DNA from: an uncultured Bacteroidales bacterium
Lineage (GTDB): Bacteria; Bacteroidota; Bacteroidia; Bacteroidales; Bacteroidaceae
Direction: 5' to 3'
Length of the DNA stretch: 64,000 bases
NCBI GenBank assembly: GCA_902781515.1
Contig: CACZJU010000004.1
Location: 62,001 to 126,000 of the forward strand
A model generated the notes under the pieces. It ran no database searches and had not been told where the DNA came from. It was given only the letters and a program-made list of their open reading frames with translations. Below, piece by piece: positions 2,619 through 35,473 of this stretch; within the stretch, counting starts at the first letter, position 1, and each line of letters opens with the position of its first letter. A program made the position numbers and the translations under genes.

Positions 2619-5600
2619 TTATTTTACAATTACTCGTACACCATTGAGGATGTAGAGTCCCTTGCCGAAGCGAGAGAGCTCGTTGAGTGTTGCGCGGCGG
2701 CTTACAAGGCGACCATCGATGGTATAAACAGCGCCAGCCTTGGCAACTTTCTCAAGTACTGTCTGGATTCCATCTTCAGCTTCCTTGTCGAGAACAACCT
2801 CTACAGCAGTCTTCTTGTCGAATCCTTCCTCGGAGACGATGTAAGCGCTATTATAACCTACAGCATCACTGCTGCTCTTGGTAACATTGAATCCGTTGCC
2901 AGACATCACAATTGCGCCAGCACCTACAGTCTCTTTACCGAAACTACCACGCAGCAGACCAGAAGCCTGAGGCTCGACAGCGCTGATAGTGTAGTTGTGC
3001 TTAACCTTTACTGCAACAGGTGCTGCATTTTCCTGATAGAGTGTGGTGTCGCCATTGATGATGATGAACGGACGACCTGCGATGGCTTTCTGGTCCTCAA
3101 CCTTCACCAGGGTAATCTTGTTGCCTTCGGTCTTAGCGATACTCCACATTACTGCATCGGGATTTTGCTTCAAGGCTACTTCCATTGGGAAGCAGAAACC
3201 ACGAACTTCACCGGGCTTCATCATGATATTGACTTCTGAGCCATCGTACTCGCTGGCAACATCTTCTGCCTCTTCGATGATGAGGCCGCTGCGGCTACCA
3301 GGAGTGGAAGCTTCCCATGTTACACAAACATTGGATGCCACTTGGGCATGTAGTTTATACTCGTATTCGCCAGTGATGCTTTCGGCAGATATAACACTTA
3401 ATCCGTAACCTATAGCGCTGGTGGTGAACAATGAAGGCTGTATGCTCAGTATTACAGGATTAGTGCTGCTGTTTTGTGTACGACGAAGGAACAAACCTGT
3501 TGCCTTGTTTTGTAGCAAATAGGCAGAGTCGCCAACGCTGATGAAGCGGAACTTGGTAAGATCCTTGTCGGCCTCGCTCTGGAGATAACTATCGTCAACA
3601 AAATAGACGTTGCGACCTACACCAGCGGTATCAGCAGACATGGGCTCAATTTCATAAATGTCCACATCTTCCTGCTCATTGTTTTTACTTACATACTTGA
3701 ATGCGTATGCCAAACCTGCATACTTTCCAAACAGGGCAGGACTGGTGTTAACACCACCGCTAACAGCCGCATTACCTGCAACCTTGTCCCAATTGTAGGC
3801 TGTGAACATTTCCTCTGTCGGGAACTGTATGCGATACCACTTGCCTTCCTGGATGCCATTGGCAGCAGCATATAGAGCTTCAGCGTCTGCATTCAAACGG
3901 TGGGCATAGTCGTCACACTGCTCTTTGGTATAGACTGCATTCTTATAGTATTCCGCAGCTTCGTCATAGAGTTGCTTGTAAGCTGTTCCGGATTCGGCAG
4001 ATGTCCACTGGCCGGGAGCAGTACCTACCTTTACGATGTTCACGATGTCTTCTGCCAACTGCTTGCGGATATCCAATGTATCGCTCAGAGGTGTTGGATC
4101 TACATACTTGGTCAGGAATGCATCGTAGGCAGTCTTCAGTGAAGTGTACATGTCGGCTGTGATGTTGTCGCGGATTGTGATGGTGTCATATACATCAACC
4201 AATTCCTTCAAGTCGGTGTACAAATTGCCCATGTGTTCGGACTGAGCGTGAGCAAGAATCTCCTCTGTACCAGGATAGAGTTGGAACTCTGCTACATGGA
4301 AGTAACCACGATTGCTGGATGAACCGCTTTTTGTGGCTGATGAGCTAAGGTAGAAGCGTAAATACTTATAGCCCTTGACTGGGAATACAGTACTCTTTAC
4401 GGTTTCGCCATCCACATTGCTAATAGGCATTTCTATTGTAGCCAATAGTTCACAAGCCTCCTTGTCGGCATCACTGTTGTCAGTACCGCGTACATTGAAG
4501 CCCGTGGGATGGTCATTCGCGGCGCCACTTCGACGTGTGAGAACAGCTGCTGCAACCTCAACGTTGGCATCATTAATTTCAACTTGCAGGTAGTGGGTGT
4601 CCATTGCGACATTACCACCGCCCCAATAACTATGCCAGAAAGTAGTATTGTTATTGTCGTTTAATGGACCTTCGTCAAGTCCTTGTCCATCGGCATCGCC
4701 CAAATCGTTTTGGCTATAAGGACTGCTGAATTGGCTCTTATCGGTAATAAGAGGATGTGTTTCGTCAACGTGACTTGTCTTCTTGACTTTTCCAGCAATC
4801 GCCAATTTAGCCTTGGCATTTGTCATGATGCTGTCGAAGTTCTCAAGCAGCTTTTCACGGTCTTTCAAAGGAGCAAATGCTTCCAGTATTTCTTCGGCTT
4901 CTTCTTTGCCAACAGGCTCAAAGAACCATTCGCTGGCCTTGGGCTTTTTAGTGGCACGATCGAAACCAGGTGCCCAACCTACAACATTACCACTCTTACC
5001 CTTACCATAGCCTACATATTCACCTTCTTCCTGATATCCATGTCCTCCCTGATGAAGGCAGAAGTAGGCATCATGTTTCTGCGGATATACATTGATGTCA
5101 ACGTATGTGATTTCATCCTCGTTGGTGTACAAAGGTGTAATCACCATTTCGTTGGTAGATGTTGTAGAGAGTGTTGCGGCTGTGCTCGTCTGAATAGTGT
5201 CGAAACGGGCTTCCCAACCGGCATTCATGATGTCGTAGCGACCATCTTGTGTTGGCTTGACATACCAAAGGGCTGCACCGTCTTCTTCGAGATTTTCGGG
5301 AGTACCCCATACGGCTTTTAATGTACTGACGTCAAGGTTAACACGCATATATTTATTTGGATAGGTAACAGTCTCTTCTCCTGTTTCAGCGTCAGTATCT
5401 ACTTGGTAGTAGGTTACAGCTGTGCGAATGCGGTAGTAGCCTTCCTCAAGAGTGATGGGGACAACGGTTGGCCAGATAGCATCGTACTTAGCTTTGACGG
5501 AATCGCCCAATGCTTTTATTTCGTCAATAGATAGATCGTCACCTTCAAAGTCTGGACCTCCGGCGTTGGCAGCTTCCAATGCATCTTTAAATGCTTGAAC

Positions 5601-29749: not shown

Positions 29750-29768
29750 GAGTTAAGAATTAAGAATT
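29744..29768 (+). repeat. AT-rich array after waaA
   Basis: AATTAAGA/GTTAAGA units (7 bp) repeated about three times span the waaA stop and continue to 29768. Confidence 0.65.
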
Positions 29769-29781
29769 GTTGTGCTGTAGC

Positions 29782-32463
29782 ATGAAAAACTTCCTGTTCT
29801 TACTCTCTTTTTCTCATTTTCTCATTTTCTCAATTTCTTGCTTCTCAGCAAAGAATGTTCGCGAGATTCGTCGTGTAGAGACGATATCCGTTGACGCTCC
29901 TGTAGGCACTGCACCTCGTTTGCCTTGGCAAGTATGGGTGACATATAAGGACGGCAGTGGCGAATGGCGACAGACACGTTGGACAAATTCCTTACGTTCC
30001 ATAGAAGAAGAACAGGCTAAAGCTTCTGTAGGCTCTTCGTACGCAGTGGATGGTTTCATCTTAGGCGACAACACCACAGACGAAGGTTATCCCATCAAGG
30101 CGCAGGTTAGGGTGGTGGCAGGACAGTATCTTGCTCCCAACCCCGTTCCCAAAGTTCATCCCTTGCCTTTGGCTGATGTGCAGCTCATTGGTAATAATCG
30201 TCTGACATCTAACCGCGACCTCGACATCCGTACTATCCTTTCGTGGGATGTTGCTCAGCAGATTTACAACTATCGTGATACCTACGGACTGCCTACTGAG
30301 GGCTATCCTGTGGCAGACGGGTGGGATTCGCCCACAACAAAACTAAAAGGACACGGTTCCGGACATTATATGTCGGCTCTGGCCTTTGCCTTTGCCTCGG
30401 CTCAGGACGATGCTGTCAAGAGTGAGTTGAGACAGCGCATTCGTCGAATGGTTGACGAACTACGTCTGTGTCAGGAGCGCACCTTCGTGTGGAACGACTC
30501 GTTGGGACGCTACTGGGAAGCACGTGACCTTGCTCCTGAGAATGAGTTGAGGGAGTTGAAAGGCAACTGGGCAGCCTTCGATGAGTACAAGAAGGACTGG
30601 CAACACTATGGTTATGGCTATCTGAATGCCATTCCTGCCCAGCACGCCATTCTTATTGAGTGCTATCGTGCGTATAATAACGAGGAATGGGTGTGGGCTC
30701 CATATTACAGCATCCACAAACAATTGGCTGGACTTATCGATATTGCAAAAAATATCGATGAAACCGCCATTTCTGAAAAAGCTCTGCTCATAGCTAAGGA
30801 TATGGGGCTGTGGGTGTGGAACCGCTTGCACTATCGCACATTTGTCAATACCGAAGGCTCTCGCGAGGAACGTCGCAGCCGTCCGGGCAATCGCTACGAG
30901 ATGTGGAACATGTACATCGCTGGTGAGGTTGGAGGTATGGCAGAATCTCTCAGTCGGCTGTCGGAGATGGTGAGTGATTCCATAGAGAGCCGTCGTTTGC
31001 TTGAGGCTGCATCGTATTTCGATGCTCCTGCTTTCTTCGACCCATTGAGCCGCAACATCGACGACATCCGTACTCGTCACGCCAATCAGCATATTCCTAT
31101 GATTACGGGTGCCTTGCGTTCTTACCGCAGCAACAAGAATCCTTATTATTATAATCTTGCCCTCAACTTCTGGAATCTCGTTCAGGGACGCTACATCTAT
31201 GCTATGGGTGGAGTGGGGAATGGCGAGATGTTCCGACAGCCATACAGTCAGGTGCTCGACGAACATGTCAACGAAACCTGCTGTGCCTATAATCTGGCGA
31301 AACTGACAAAGGAACTCAACTGTTACACTCCTGACGATGCAGCGTTGATGGACTACTACGAACGGGTTCTCTACAACCAGATTGTGGGCTCTGTTCATCC
31401 TACGCATTACGGCGTGTGCTACCAGTATGCTGTGGGCATGAATGCTGCTAAGCCTTTTGGCAACGAAACACCGCAGTCAACTTGCTGTGGAGGAACTGGT
31501 GCTGAGAATCATGTGAAATATCAGGAGGCAGCCTATTTCGTTGACGATGAAACCTTGTGGGTTGCCCTCTATCTGCCCACCGAAGCCCGTTGGCGTGAGA
31601 AAGGCGTTACTCTGAAGCAGGAATGCGAGTGGCCTGCCGAACAGACGCGCATTACCATAGAAGGCGAAGCGGAATTTACAATGAAACTGCGTGTTCCCTA
31701 CTGGGCTACCAAAGGCTTTGAAGTCCGCCTGAACGACCGCAAACTCCCCCTAAAGGGGGCTGGGGGGTCTTATATTGAGATTCCGCACCGCAGATGGAAG
31801 ACTGGTGATGTGGTGGAAGTCGTGATGCCCTACCAGCCACACATTCATTTCCATCCCGACAAGATGCAGTTCTCGCCACATTGGGTGGGCGCTCTCATGC
31901 TCGGCCCCTTGGTAATGGCTTCCCCCGACATCACTTCGTGGGAAGATGCGGTATTCCCACTCCCTCTAAAAAATAATTTTCAATTTTCCATTTTCAATTT
32001 TCCATTAGGCAAGGCCACATTCCAGCCCGACTATGCCATCGCAGACCAGCGTTCCACCCACTATCTCCGCTTCGATATGGGTAAGGCCAAACACCCGCTC
32101 AGCAAGCAGCAAGCCGAGGCCGAAATGAAGCGGCTGACGGAAGTCGCGCAGGAGCGAGTGGCAAATCCCAAAGCTTGGGCTCCACACGGCTATGCCCGTA
32201 TGCTTAAAGCTATGGAAACGGAGGATGCGCAGGCTCTGAAGACGGTTCTCGCCACTATGCGTCCCAGCAACTTGGCAGAGCCCGAAGACCTGACCGAACT
32301 TCTCGTTCTGTTAGCCAAAGCGAAAGACGTCAGCAATAAATCAGCGGAACTGAGCGAAGCCATCAAGTATGCCGAAATGGTGGTGCAGTACGTCAACGAC
32401 GGCTCTGGCACCCACGACTTCATCCGCAAAGCCACCCACTCCCTCCAGCCCCTCATTCCTTAA
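29782..32463 (+). CDS. GH127 family glycosidase (beta-L-arabinofuranosidase-like)
   Basis: An 893-residue secreted protein; the ATG at 29782 gives a clean signal (MKNFLFLLSFSHFLIFSISC, possible lipobox), while an ATG 15 bases earlier adds MLCCS. The catalytic (alpha/alpha)6 part carries the GH127/DUF1680 blocks GHGSGHYMSALAFAFAS, YYSIHKQLAGLID, GNRYEMWNMYIAGEVGGMAE, HANQHIPMITGALR, NETCCAYNLAKLTKEL and STCCGGTGAENHVKY, which include the zinc-binding cysteines and acidic residue. GH127 enzymes remove beta-L-arabinofuranose from plant glycans. Two in-frame inserts are visible: PLKGAGGS (31744-31769) and NNFQFSIFNFPL (31972-32007). The helical C-terminal about 110 residues are not recognised. 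Confidence 0.9.
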   Translation: MKNFLFLLSFSHFLIFSISCFSAKNVREIRRVETISVDAPVGTAPRLPWQVWVTYKDGSGEWRQTRWTNSLRSIEEEQAKASVGSSYAVDGFILGDNTTDEGYPIKAQVRVVAGQYLAPNPVPKVHPLPLADVQLIGNNRLTSNRDLDIRTILSWDVAQQIYNYRDTYGLPTEGYPVADGWDSPTTKLKGHGSGHYMSALAFAFASAQDDAVKSELRQRIRRMVDELRLCQERTFVWNDSLGRYWEARDLAPENELRELKGNWAAFDEYKKDWQHYGYGYLNAIPAQHAILIECYRAYNNEEWVWAPYYSIHKQLAGLIDIAKNIDETAISEKALLIAKDMGLWVWNRLHYRTFVNTEGSREERRSRPGNRYEMWNMYIAGEVGGMAESLSRLSEMVSDSIESRRLLEAASYFDAPAFFDPLSRNIDDIRTRHANQHIPMITGALRSYRSNKNPYYYNLALNFWNLVQGRYIYAMGGVGNGEMFRQPYSQVLDEHVNETCCAYNLAKLTKELNCYTPDDAALMDYYERVLYNQIVGSVHPTHYGVCYQYAVGMNAAKPFGNETPQSTCCGGTGAENHVKYQEAAYFVDDETLWVALYLPTEARWREKGVTLKQECEWPAEQTRITIEGEAEFTMKLRVPYWATKGFEVRLNDRKLPLKGAGGSYIEIPHRRWKTGDVVEVVMPYQPHIHFHPDKMQFSPHWVGALMLGPLVMASPDITSWEDAVFPLPLKNNFQFSIFNFPLGKATFQPDYAIADQRSTHYLRFDMGKAKHPLSKQQAEAEMKRLTEVAQERVANPKAWAPHGYARMLKAMETEDAQALKTVLATMRPSNLAEPEDLTELLVLLAKAKDVSNKSAELSEAIKYAEMVVQYVNDGSGTHDFIRKATHSLQPLIP
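31744..31769 (+). repeat. GC-rich palindromic mini-element inside the GH127 gene
   Basis: A 26-bp element beginning CTCCCCCTAAAGGGGGCTGG with a CCCCCTAAAGGGGG palindrome is read in frame as LPLKGAGGS. It differs at only one base from the element at 34632-34657 (complement). Confidence 0.85.
31972..32007 (+). repeat. AT-rich array inside the GH127 gene
   Basis: Units of TTTTCAA / TTTTCCA (7 bp) are repeated about four times and read as NNFQFSIFNFPLG. It closely resembles the gldN signal-peptide array. Confidence 0.8.
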
Positions 32464-32812
32464 CACCTTAGTCCTTCCAACGGAGGGGTAGTAGGGCTTG
32501 GCAGGTAGGATTAGTAATCCTTCGGGGGAAGCGATAGTAATGTTCCGTGCTTAACATTACTATTCCTGTCGTCATAAGACCTAGACCTTATCGCAACAAG
32601 ACCTAGGTCTTATCGACACAGGTTAAGTTAACCTTCGGCAATAGGTTAACTTAACTTTTGGAAAGAGGTAATATTCGCTCGGCGACGTAAGGAGACGCTT
32701 GCGTAGCAAAGAGGAGCAAGTAATCGGCTTGCCGCTTGCGTAATATAATGGAGCAAGAACCTATGGGCATAGATAATATTATCTGCTTCTGCTGAAAAAT
32801 TGTTGTAATCAC
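32464..32812. repeat. Gene-free island of palindromic repeat modules
   Basis: No credible gene is present. The stretch holds a CCTTCCAACGGAGGGG fragment (32474-32489), a GATAGTAATGTT / AACATTACTAT hairpin (32541-32569), an exact 14-bp palindrome AAGACCTAGGTCTT (32598-32611), an AGGTTAAGTTAACCT / AGGTTAACTTAAC hairpin (32620-32655) and two CGCTTGCG...GCAAG repeats (32696-32760). A 33-bp segment at 32603-32635 recurs at 60947-60979 with three differences. Confidence 0.8.
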
Positions 32813-32813
32813 A

Positions 32814-33056
32814 AAAAACCTCACAACCTCCCCCAGGCCCGATGAATAACGGGCTGAAGGCGGTGAGGTTTGCTTTCAAACCTCACCCGAAAGTCCATAA
32901 ACCTCACCTCTTGGGAGAAGTTCAAGCAAAATGCATTGGTAAGAGATGTCTTAAGTGAAATGGGAGGTTTAGGTGAGGTTTGGGTGACTTTTGCGAATAA
33001 ACATCCCATTGGCGAGTCCTTTATTTATCGGACTTGGGGGAGTTTGTGAGGTTTTA
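32814..33056. mobile_element. MITE-like element with 36-bp terminal inverted repeats
   Basis: The left end (32814-32849) and the reverse complement of the right end (33021-33056) match at 31 of 36 positions, including CTCACAA, CTCCCCCA and CGAT.AATAA. Inside are further copies of AAACCTCACC in both orientations (32862, 32878, 32899, 32970). No transposase or credible gene fits in the 243 bp and no clear target duplication is visible. A non-autonomous transposable element is the best reading; a structured RNA is the alternative. Confidence 0.6.
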
Positions 33057-33101
33057 CGCGCGATGCATGTTTTTCAGGGTTAAGAACATAATCCTTTATT
33101 C

Positions 33102-33686
33102 CTAATCCTTAATCGGAGTGTAGTCCTCGGAGCGGGTGACGACTTGAGTGTTGGAGGGGTCGGAGTCGGCCTCGCGGAACCAGTCGCTGTATTCGATGTA
33201 GTGACGGGCGTAGGTCTTGTTCATGGCTTGTGCCTGTTCGGGGTCAACTTTCTTGATGAACTTGGCAGGGACACCTCCCCAGAGTTCGCCGTCGCCAATC
33301 TGGGTGTTGGAGAGGACAAGAGCACCGGCTGCGACTATCGCTCCCTTGCCTACTACGGCGTGGTCGAGCACCGTTGCTCCCATGCCCACGAGGGCTCCAT
33401 CCTTGATTTCGCAGCCGTGAAGGGTGACCGAGTGACCGATGGTGACATCGTCGCCAAGAATGCAGGGGGCTTTGCCGTTGAGGGTGTGGATGCAGGAGTT
33501 GTCCTGAATGTTGGTGCGGTTGCCAACCTTTATAAAATGCACGTCGCCGCGAACGACGGCATTGAACCAGACGGTGCAGTCGTCGCCCATTTCTACGTCA
33601 CCAACTATTACCGCTCCTTCGCTGAAGTAGCAATGCTTGCCGAAGCGGGGGGCAGGCATGCCTTTGAGAGCTTTTATTATAGCCAT
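33102..33686 (-). CDS. Gamma-class carbonic anhydrase family protein
   Basis: A 194-residue left-handed beta-helix protein with hexapeptide repeats (AVIVGDVEMGDDCTVWFNAVVRGDV, RTNIQDNSCIHTLNG, VTIGHSVTLHGCEI, LVGMGATVLDHAVVG). The three zinc histidines of the gamma carbonic anhydrase/YrdA/PaaY family are present in SCIHT, IGHSV and LHGC. Proteins of this group may interconvert CO2 and bicarbonate, though many members have unproven activity. It follows the aminopeptidase P gene on the same strand, separated only by an AT array. Confidence 0.9.
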   Translation of the reverse strand: MAIIKALKGMPAPRFGKHCYFSEGAVIVGDVEMGDDCTVWFNAVVRGDVHFIKVGNRTNIQDNSCIHTLNGKAPCILGDDVTIGHSVTLHGCEIKDGALVGMGATVLDHAVVGKGAIVAAGALVLSNTQIGDGELWGGVPAKFIKKVDPEQAQAMNKTYARHYIEYSDWFREADSDPSNTQVVTRSEDYTPIKD

Positions 33687-33691
33687 TTTTG

Positions 33692-33736
33692 CTAATTACG
33701 AATTACGAATTATGAATTACGAGTTATGAATTATGA
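33692..33736. repeat. AT-rich array spanning the aminopeptidase P stop
   Basis: ATTACGA/ATTATGA 7-8 bp units fill the gap between the two minus-strand genes, and the aminopeptidase stop codon (33731-33733) lies inside it. Confidence 0.75.
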
Positions 33737-35473
33737 AATGGGACTTGTTGATTCGCGCAGCCAGGCGCGGTCTTCCTCGCAGAGCAGGGGAGAGAGTTCG
33801 GCATAGACGTGCTGGTGATAACTGTTGAGCCATTCTATCTCGTCGGGCATCATCATCTCAAAGACGATGGGCGTAGTGTCGATGGGACAGAGGGTTAGCG
33901 GCTCAAATTGCAGAAATTCGCCGAATTCACCGTCACAAAAGTGTGTTATGAGCATAGTGTTCTCCGTTCGGCAGCCGTGCTTGCCTGTCTTGTAAATACC
34001 TGGCTCGTTGGTTACCGTCATTCCTGCGACAAGAGGCGCTGGCATGTAGTTCATGCGAATCTGATGAGGCCCTTCGTGAACGTTAAGATACGAGCCTACA
34101 CCGTGCCCTGTGCCGTGCAGGAAGTTGATGCCCTGTTGCCACATAGCATAGCGAGCCAGCACATCGAGCTGTGTTCCGCTGCTCCCAGAGGGGAACTTTG
34201 CCATAGCCAGTCGGATGTGTCCCTTCAGCACCAGCGTGTAGTCTGTGCGCTCCTCTTCGGTCAAGGGGCCGAGGGCGATAGTTCGCGTGATGTCTGTGGT
34301 TCCTTCCTGATATTGTGCACCGCTGTCGAGTAGGAGCAATCCGTGCGGCTCAAGCGGGATATCGGTTTCGGGAGTTGCTTCGTAGTGCACTATAGCTCCG
34401 TGAGCTCCGTAACCGGCGATGGTGTCGAACGAAATATCGCGGAACCCTTCCTGTTCAGCCCTCAGTGAGGTCAGTTTCTGATCAATACTTATTTCTGTCT
34501 GTCCACCTGCTTCAACAGCAGGTTTCAACCAACGCAGGAACTTCACCAAAGCGATTCCGTCCTTACGCATAGCACTTCGATAACCCGCAATCTCGGCCTC
34601 GTTCTTTACGGCCTTCATAGGTGCTACCAAAGACCCCCCTGCCCCCTTTAGGGGGAGAGAAACAAGTGCAGAGTTGCAGGTGCTTGGGTCAACGAGTATT
34701 CGTCCCTTTGGACAGGCGACATTGGTGTATTCGTCGGTCTCTATGCCTTGTTGCGCGAGATATTGACGAACCTCGTCGGTGAGTTTTTGGGGTAGGGTAT
34801 AGAGCGTGACATTATCCATCGTTACCATCAGATACGAGACGAAAAGCGGACAGCAGTGGACATCTGTTCCGCGCAGGTTTGTGAGCCACGCAATGTCGTC
34901 GAGCTGTGTGATGATGGTGGCATCGGCGTGTAGGTCGCGAAGTTCCTGACGAAGTCTTTCAATCTTGTGACAAGCTTCTTCGCCTGCGAACTTCAGGGGC
35001 TGTATCTCGATGGGGTTGAGGGGAATGGGCGGACGGTTCTCCCATAGTTCTGCTGCAGGGTCGGGTGCAAGGACAAGCTCCAGTCCCTCGAACTCCAGTT
35101 CGCTGCGCAGTTGTTCTACATTATTTATAGTATTTACCCATCCGTCTATGCCTACCTTGCTGCCTTTAGGCAGTATGTTGCCGAGCCATTTGGCAATGGA
35201 GGGTGTTTCGGACAGCTTTTCCTTCATCAGGCGGAAGGGCGTGCCTTTGAGCTGCTCCTCGGCAGCGAGCCAGTAGCGGCTGTCGGTCCACAATGCAGCA
35301 TCATTGAGAGTGACGACAGCTGTTCCTGCCGAACCGTTGAAGCCGCTTATCCATTCGCGCGTCTTCCAATGGTCGGGGACGTACTCGCCGCAGTGTGGGT
35401 CGGTGCTTGGGAATATGAATGCTGCGAGGTTGTGGGCTTTCAGCCACTCGCGTAGGGGGGTGATGGGGGTCAT
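33731..35473 (-). CDS. Xaa-Pro aminopeptidase (aminopeptidase P, M24B)
   Basis: A 580-residue cytoplasmic metallopeptidase removing N-terminal residues before proline. It has the three-domain plan of the eukaryote-like APP family: two creatinase-N domains (LREWLKAHNLAAFIFPSTDPHCGEY; the second around LPQKLTDEV) and the pita-bread catalytic domain. The metal ligands are seen in LLLLDSGAQYQEGTTDITRT (two Asp), FLHGTGHGVGSYLNVHEGP (His), TNEPGIY (Glu) and RTENTM (Glu). Residues about 273-280 (LPLKGAGGS) come from a GC-rich palindromic element nearly identical to that in the GH127 gene. Confidence 0.93.
   Translation of the reverse strand: MTPITPLREWLKAHNLAAFIFPSTDPHCGEYVPDHWKTREWISGFNGSAGTAVVTLNDAALWTDSRYWLAAEEQLKGTPFRLMKEKLSETPSIAKWLGNILPKGSKVGIDGWVNTINNVEQLRSELEFEGLELVLAPDPAAELWENRPPIPLNPIEIQPLKFAGEEACHKIERLRQELRDLHADATIITQLDDIAWLTNLRGTDVHCCPLFVSYLMVTMDNVTLYTLPQKLTDEVRQYLAQQGIETDEYTNVACPKGRILVDPSTCNSALVSLPLKGAGGSLVAPMKAVKNEAEIAGYRSAMRKDGIALVKFLRWLKPAVEAGGQTEISIDQKLTSLRAEQEGFRDISFDTIAGYGAHGAIVHYEATPETDIPLEPHGLLLLDSGAQYQEGTTDITRTIALGPLTEEERTDYTLVLKGHIRLAMAKFPSGSSGTQLDVLARYAMWQQGINFLHGTGHGVGSYLNVHEGPHQIRMNYMPAPLVAGMTVTNEPGIYKTGKHGCRTENTMLITHFCDGEFGEFLQFEPLTLCPIDTTPIVFEMMMPDEIEWLNSYHQHVYAELSPLLCEEDRAWLRESTSPIS
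34632..34657 (-). repeat. GC-rich palindromic mini-element inside the aminopeptidase P gene
   Basis: On the coding strand it begins CTCCCCCTAAAGGGGGCAGG and is read as LPLKGAGGS, the same frame and peptide as the copy in GH127. 25 of 26 bases agree. Confidence 0.85.

Follow-up and report, generated by a model that had tools for sequence, protein, structure and literature searches.

A 26-bp repeat carried in frame by two unrelated enzymes of an uncultured Bacteroidales bacterium, probably from a mobile REP/REPIN-like family of its genus

The DNA examined here, called the window below, is a stretch of 64,000 nt from an uncultured Bacteroidales bacterium (GCA_902781515.1, contig CACZJU010000004.1, positions 62,001-126,000 of the forward strand). 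Two of its genes, which encode enzymes on opposite strands, each carry one copy of a short repeat, referred to here as the element. The scores given below come from a whole-genome search with a covariance model, R1, and both window copies were among the 35 copies used to build it.

29767..32463, + strand: host gene 1, an ORF of 898 aa for a GH127 beta-L-arabinofuranosidase-like enzyme (PF07944, PF20736)
31744..31769, + strand: element copy 1, haplotype I (CT...GGGGGGTC), 48.8 bits, E 3.7e-10
33731..35473, - strand: host gene 2, an ORF of 580 aa for an aminopeptidase P of the M24 family (PF01321, PF16189, PF00557, PF16188)
34632..34657, - strand: element copy 2, haplotype I, 46.8 bits, E 1.4e-9

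A sequence-only reading of this DNA had proposed that one palindromic element of 26 bp is inserted in the same frame in two different enzymes, and its description of the two copies proved accurate. Read in the element's orientation, the copies match at 27 of 28 positions (CTCCCCCTAAAGGGGGC[T/A]GGGGGGTCTT); outside them the sequences do not align, and identity ends at the element edges. Copy 1 and the next base form nine codons that read LPLKGAGGS in the GH127 ORF, and copy 2 with its adjoining base encodes the same peptide in the aminopeptidase P ORF. Pfam places the hosts in different families, GH127 and M24 aminopeptidase P, the latter being identified by its best PDB match as well. The description as a palindrome held for the 14-bp core but not for the rest of the 26 bp, and the window copies, folded as single strands, did not exceed shuffles in stability (z −0.81 and −0.78). 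A chance repeat was ruled out, both by the genus-wide counts against a reversed control pattern (see below) and within the window itself, where the core CCCCCTAAAGGGGGC occurs twice with up to two mismatches against an expectation of 0.05, a count that none of 100 shuffles reached.

The peptide was found in none of the homologues aligned. For aminopeptidase P it was absent from 29 of 29 same-genus homologues (a set of 30 loci including the window's own, from 50 genomes with a match) and from all 27 named homologues that were aligned out of 48 loci; the element itself, with up to one mismatch allowed, was found in none of these 48 loci. For GH127 it was absent from 29 of 29 same-genus homologues (30 loci including the window's own, from 37 genomes with a match) and from seven of seven named ones. 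An ancestral peptide is therefore ruled out for the aligned homologues of both enzymes, and the earlier proposal that the element has spread rather than been inherited is supported by this absence together with the further copies in the genome and the genus. The records retrieved by aminopeptidase similarity were largely rumen and gut MAGs of Prevotellaceae/Bacteroidaceae.

In the GH127 protein, the element corresponds to residues 660-668, a turn between two predicted strands in a loop that varies among relatives. The structural model of this protein is poor overall (mean pLDDT 55.2), with the block 661-670 at 56 and the neighbouring blocks at 84 and 89. In aminopeptidase P, the element corresponds to residues 273-281, which lie after the N-terminal domains and before the M24 catalytic domain; the AlphaFold model is good (mean pLDDT 91.1), its lowest 10-residue block is 271-280 (58), and in this model the insert sits in the least confident coil. 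The GH127 loop has the same length as in the window protein in 20 of 29 same-genus homologues, and the window aminopeptidase P is two residues shorter at the element site than a relative of 81% identity. As the loops of the window enzymes are, against most of the relatives compared, equal in length or shorter, the element replaces host residues and does not simply add to them. The claim of insertion into coding DNA was thus borne out as regards spread but has to be amended as regards its outcome, because the proteins were not lengthened and a similar number of host residues was replaced. The GH127 ORF has a second variable loop, at window positions 31960-32006, where CTCCCTCTAAAAAATAATTTTCAATTTTCCATTTTCAATTTTCC encodes LPLKNNFQFSIFNF; this low-complexity repeat has a beginning that resembles half of the element and shares its frame. 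The element loop of GH127 holds other repeat-like peptides in genomes G055 (locus L287) and G018 (L294), namely NNSKLTINNEQL and NNSQFTIHNSQL.

The genome of 2.46 Mb contains further copies. The pattern was found at seven places with up to two mismatches, three of them exact, against one for the reversed control pattern; the covariance model from 35 copies gave eight places at E <=1, six of which have E <=0.0011. Besides the window copies, the following were found:

RsmB/F 16S rRNA methyltransferase gene (L004): in-frame copy
RNase P protein gene (L003; PF00825): in-frame copy
PnuC gene (L007/L334; PF04973): two adjacent in-frame copies, one of them weak (E 0.12)
L006/L333: intergenic copy just before a small ORF with, by reading of the sequence, a lipoprotein-like start

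Two places are doubtful: a degenerate C5 copy (L005) and the one with the weakest score (C10:30259, E 0.4).

The search across relatives gave 304 matches in the 61 genomes of the genus, against two for the reversed control pattern. With up to one mismatch, the element is present in 34 of the 61 genomes (own included), which are mostly incomplete MAGs of 1.6-3.7 Mb, at 0 to 60 copies each. When an exact match was required, tail included, the element appeared in 3 of the 10 same-genus genomes searched (own included), in 1 of 151 genomes of other genera of the family and nowhere in a further 394 genomes across the class (six of the family, none of the genus). The copy from another genus (G593, L346) lies in the ORF of a D-2-hydroxyacid dehydrogenase, where it reads LPLKGAGGS, with contamination of that genome being possible.

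To describe the unit, we used a sample of 260 de-duplicated copies, the loci of which were chosen for carrying the core and not at random. Among the 211 copies with an exact core, 77 belong to haplotype I (CT...GGGGGG), 67 to haplotype II (TT...AGGGGG) and 67 to neither. The consensus of the 26-bp unit from exact-core copies is [C/T]T-CCCCCTAAAGGGGG-NN-[G/A]GGGGG-TC. The core and the haplotype positions, including the G-run, had been selected for; the terminal TC had not been selected, and it is conserved at 1.5-2.0 bits (77 haplotype I and 65 haplotype II copies), with a G before it. Positions outside the unit mostly carry 0-0.3 bits and at most 0.8. Spread by phage was rejected, only two viral contigs matching haplotype I and none haplotype II: contig L245 of the viral collection has one convincing haplotype I copy at about 3299-3324 on the - strand, and that of L244 is an apparent chance match in GC-rich DNA, which was left out of the stem and target-duplication analyses.

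Neighbouring copies are predominantly inverted. At distances of 31-120 bp, 45 of 56 neighbours were arranged '-+', six '+-', three '++' and two '--' (binomial p 6e-18 for the excess of '-+', with related genomes counted as independent), in a count that allowed up to two core mismatches and therefore takes in related families. These families, B (CTCCCCCAAAGGGGGAG...) and C (CTCCCCCTTAAAGGGGGAG...), share the layout of the element but have different stems. Seven neighbours lay 121-400 bp apart, three of them '-+'; among the 30 that were no more than 30 bp apart, 18 had the same orientation. One complete inverted pair (L078) folded into a long hairpin of −31.9 kcal/mol (z −7.55 against shuffles). 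By the strict pattern there are 119 singles and 18 pairs, a count that decayed partners would escape. Around these 18 pairs and 119 singles, direct repeats of 2-10 bp that would indicate target duplication were within the range of 300 shuffles. In 99 imperfect copies, none of 495 stem pairs was compensatory (460 intact, 14 wobble and 21 broken), which rules against selection on the stem after insertion. Some intergenic copies lie in tandem arrays with a period of about 44-50 bp (L184, L185 and L186 in G036, L343 in G597 and L201 in G020), where they alternate with CACGTG-, GTGAAGA- or TTTACCA-type repeats; as L184 and L185 start at a contig end, the copy counts from MAGs may be too low.

Both window copies lie inside genes, as had been claimed, but this is not the general rule in the genus: under a strict coding test, which demanded a coding signal on both sides of a copy, only 42 of the 260 sampled copies passed. 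The two haplotypes differ in this respect, with 28 of 77 copies strictly coding for haplotype I and 2 of 67 for haplotype II (Fisher p 2.6e-7, related genomes being treated as independent). When only frames open in both haplotypes were used, the numbers were 18 and 1 (p 9e-5, again with relatives as independent). A looser criterion, under which any coding ORF spanning the copy sufficed, gave 49 of 75 against 3 of 67 and is biased by the greater number of stops in haplotype II. Haplotype I is stop-free in four of six frames, all of them Pro/Gly-rich (LPLKGxGGS, PPKGGxGV, TPxPPLGG and DPPxPFRG), so it should be easy to tolerate in genes. The host ORFs are mostly of recognizable families: 16 of 20 in one set (the exceptions being L068, L165, L024 and L241) and 10 of 10 in another had a Pfam family. 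One ORF at L070:3073-3996 (-) contains Bro-N and C_GCAxxG_C_C domains, with a copy of the element within the stretch of the second domain.

Occupied and empty sites were found in close relatives. The site in the ODP flavoprotein gene is occupied in G036, G027 and G053 and empty in G012, G020, G032 and two named relatives; it consists of five codons if empty and eleven if occupied, nine of which are the element, a net gain of 18 nt. In IleRS, where the proteins share 89-95% identity with the G036 protein (77% in the case of G051), one loop holds an inverted pair of the element in G036 and G053, a family C pair at that position in G027 and G005 (68 of 68 positions identical) and, in the other seven genomes aligned, sequence that is unrelated and, by reading, partly low-complexity. 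Relative to the best solved structure, IleRS is made longer by about 17 residues through its in-frame pair; in PrmC, by the same kind of comparison, an in-frame pair ends a few residues ahead of the NPPY motif. A ValRS loop carries an in-frame pair only in G053 among the 11 genomes aligned. In G027 (L275) the aminopeptidase P loop contains an inverted pair of family C, and in G013 (L259) an inverted array of GGGGCAAG-type octamers. In a kelch/sodium-solute symporter protein, the element lies at one common site in G053, G005 and G597 (L081, L206 and L348).

At shared sites, the conservation of the element was compared with that of gapped flanks of 150 and 400 bases. The p values for a more conserved element were 0.0016 and 0.005 for IleRS family C, 0.048 and 0.032 for ODP L142/L170, 0.092 and 0.12 for ODP L142/L065, 0.26 and 0.33 for IleRS family A, and 0.5 and 0.074 for the symporter, so that stronger conservation of the element than of its flanks was only partly seen. 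As a tentative suggestion, which we regard as rather unlikely, haplotype I might be a specialist of coding DNA and enzyme loops might serve as landing pads where repeat families replace one another, parasitic DNA thereby driving loop turnover. If this were true, such turnover would operate in the surface loops of essential enzymes between closely related species.

We suggest that the window probably holds two single copies of a short mobile repeat family, REP/REPIN-like in kind, of this Prevotellaceae genus. The unit of 26 bp is bounded and dispersed, its copy number varies strongly between species, and in-frame copies occur in loops of conserved enzymes, some of them common to several species and absent from others. 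It is the inverted order of neighbouring copies, taken with the bounded unit, that suggests a REPIN-like mobile element, and from this we infer movement. The moving form would be the inverted pair, able to fold as a single long hairpin; it would move as a single strand, mobilized by an enzyme acting in trans, and single copies would be simpler products or remnants. Entry of the element would replace a few host bases and make no target duplication, and selection would remove insertions that shift the frame or hit the structure, leaving copies between genes or in permissive surface loops. The repeat thus appears to rewrite short segments of important proteins that nevertheless stay functional, and we have no evidence for an effect on the function of a host enzyme. 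Several results speak against this reading: the Y1 search turned up no mobilizing enzyme, the two window copies are single, singles outnumber strict pairs, the closest neighbours more often share their orientation, tandem arrays occur, imperfect copies lack compensatory stem changes, four host ORFs match no Pfam family, and most of the genomes are incomplete MAGs.

The excess of singles makes the reading as a REPIN-like mobile family somewhat less likely and somewhat favors a route without a dedicated enzyme, in which hairpins, and the low-complexity repeats that accompany the element, would seed its spread through slippage, gene conversion or template switching as DNA is replicated or repaired. 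Such a route is left open by the loss of host bases at entry, the lack of target duplication, the many singles and the amplification of some intergenic copies together with the short-repeat arrays in which they are embedded; slippage, in particular, better fits the shared orientation at 30 bp or less and the arrays with a period of 44-50 bp. It would also agree with the different repeat types held by the IleRS, ValRS, GH127 and aminopeptidase loops across species and with the missing association with a Y1 transposase. However, a bounded unit in mostly inverted arrangement in unrelated genes points to a defined element, and neither of the genic window copies has an adjoining array, so we consider this route a serious possibility but on balance improbable. 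By either route, frame and structure filter the survivors in genes. Less likely still, these may be ordinary REPINs moved by a RAYT (TnpA-REP, a Y1 HUH transposase), the gene for which has been lost or missed in most genomes. The layout of tag, stem-loop and inverted pair with spacer, without target duplication, is shared, and a Bacteroidetes RAYT subclass, 2.6, with atypical flanking structures is described in the accessible part of PMC6006769. The distribution of Y1 genes does not support a RAYT as the driver: no Y1 match was found in the own genome, and in the genus matches occur in 22 of 61 genomes at E <=0.001 (17 over the cut-off), with strong, near-full-length ones (E 1e-16 or better) in six, the copy numbers of which did not differ from those of the rest of the 61 (p 0.52). 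Among the five richest genomes, the fourth, G027 (25 copies), has a strong Y1, but G036, G020 and G005 have none and G053 has only a partial match (profile 38-89, E 5.9e-5, in a 460-aa frame); G051 (19 copies) has a weaker match over most of the profile (E 1.5e-7). No element was found within about 1.5 kb on each side of the six strong loci (L037-L042) or, by flank scan, near the weaker matches, save a shorter CCCCTAAAGGGG core at L058, and the GTAG tag is missing. Other short hairpins unlike the element, CCCCAGCGGGG, CCCCGTTGGGG and CCCCTTCGGGG, lie near the Y1_Tnp genes at L037, L039 and L041.

Two further explanations invoke function. The repeats might be transcription terminators or mRNA stabilizers, with genic copies accidental, as 51 of the 56 scored intergenic copies of haplotype II lie between genes in tandem; yet neighbouring ORF pairs at those loci are tandem about equally often (278 of 331), the consensus ends in GGGGGTC with no T-run, and haplotype I is enriched in genes, all of which makes this explanation quite improbable. 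That enzymes have converged on LPLKGAGGS as a useful linker is hardly credible at all. The frame encoding it, +0, is indeed the commonest in haplotype I, with 12 of the 25 strictly coding copies that remained after shared sites were collapsed (12, 8, 4 and 1 over four frames; p 0.012, with members of a pair counted apart). But it is the DNA that is nearly identical and not the peptide alone, four frames and both strands are in use, many copies lie outside genes and the aligned homologues lack the peptide.

Rickettsia palindromic elements, to which the sequence-only reading had likened the element, are reportedly the subject of Ogata 2000 and Ogata 2002. The likeness is apt in behaviour: in both cases, so far as the Rickettsia elements are described, in-frame copies lie in unrelated protein genes and, as found here, are absent from homologues. 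According to the portion of PMC10969869 that was available, the Rickettsia elements are mobile palindromic DNA of about 150 bp, in frame in unrelated metabolic genes. Compared by this description only, they differ from the present element in size (26 bp for the single unit and upwards of about 70 bp for a pair) and in host lineage, which here is gut/rumen Bacteroidota.

The REPs with a CGTC tag, which include RPE-4 and RPE-6 of Rickettsia and dRS3 of Neisseria, are presented in the accessible text of PMC3733652 as short palindromic repeats, frequently in inverted dimers with spacers of 20-100 bp; copies occur in ORFs, some as dimers encoding 20-30 residues, with tRNA synthetase genes among the hosts, and a dedicated transposase is reported to be lacking. 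The element resembles them, as far as they are described there, in its short size (26 bp against palindromic units of 20-40 bp), in the inverted order of 45 of 56 neighbours, in intragenic copies and in tRNA synthetase hosts, and no link to a transposase was found in the Y1_Tnp search, which covered the Y1 class alone. It differs from that description in its stem, in its end (GGGGG-TC in place of the CGTC tag) and in having two haplotypes divided between genes and intergenic DNA. The element therefore works like the CGTC REPs but is not a member by the defining tag, and the GTAG of the other REPs is likewise absent.

REPINs are not known to make target duplications, and none was detected for the element. 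The orientation counts and the one pair folded indicate that two inverted units can form one long hairpin, as in REPINs. A stem-loop with a conserved end and an inverted pair around a spacer are features shared with REPINs and BIMEs, as outlined in the available parts of PMC6006769 and PMC3733652. Unlike in GTAG REPs and REPINs, the aligned unit has no GTAG and no conserved flank to hold one; no linked RAYT gene was found, and intragenic copies are frequent. MITEs that make in-frame fusions are treated in a review (PMC10969869) and, reportedly, in a Coxiella MITE paper (PMC5896051). The element is like them in consisting of non-autonomous inverted repeats able to add coding sequence, and unlike DDE-type MITEs in showing no target-site duplication and in having 119 singles to 18 strict pairs.

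Literature searches on Bacteroidetes, Prevotella, RAYT, REPIN and Rickettsia yielded no report of this repeat family by title or abstract, and the matches listed for literal motif strings in literature text had titles and abstracts on unrelated subjects. In-frame mobile palindromes are described, in the available parts of PMC3733652 and PMC10969869, from Rickettsia and other, mainly proteobacterial, genomes. The present case is a lineage of gut and rumen bacteria in which close relatives differ in whether a site is occupied or empty, and in which a single IleRS loop hosts different repeat families in relatives with 90-95% identical proteins; with such a system it can be tested how protein segments are added or exchanged by a mobile repeat while essential enzymes stay active.
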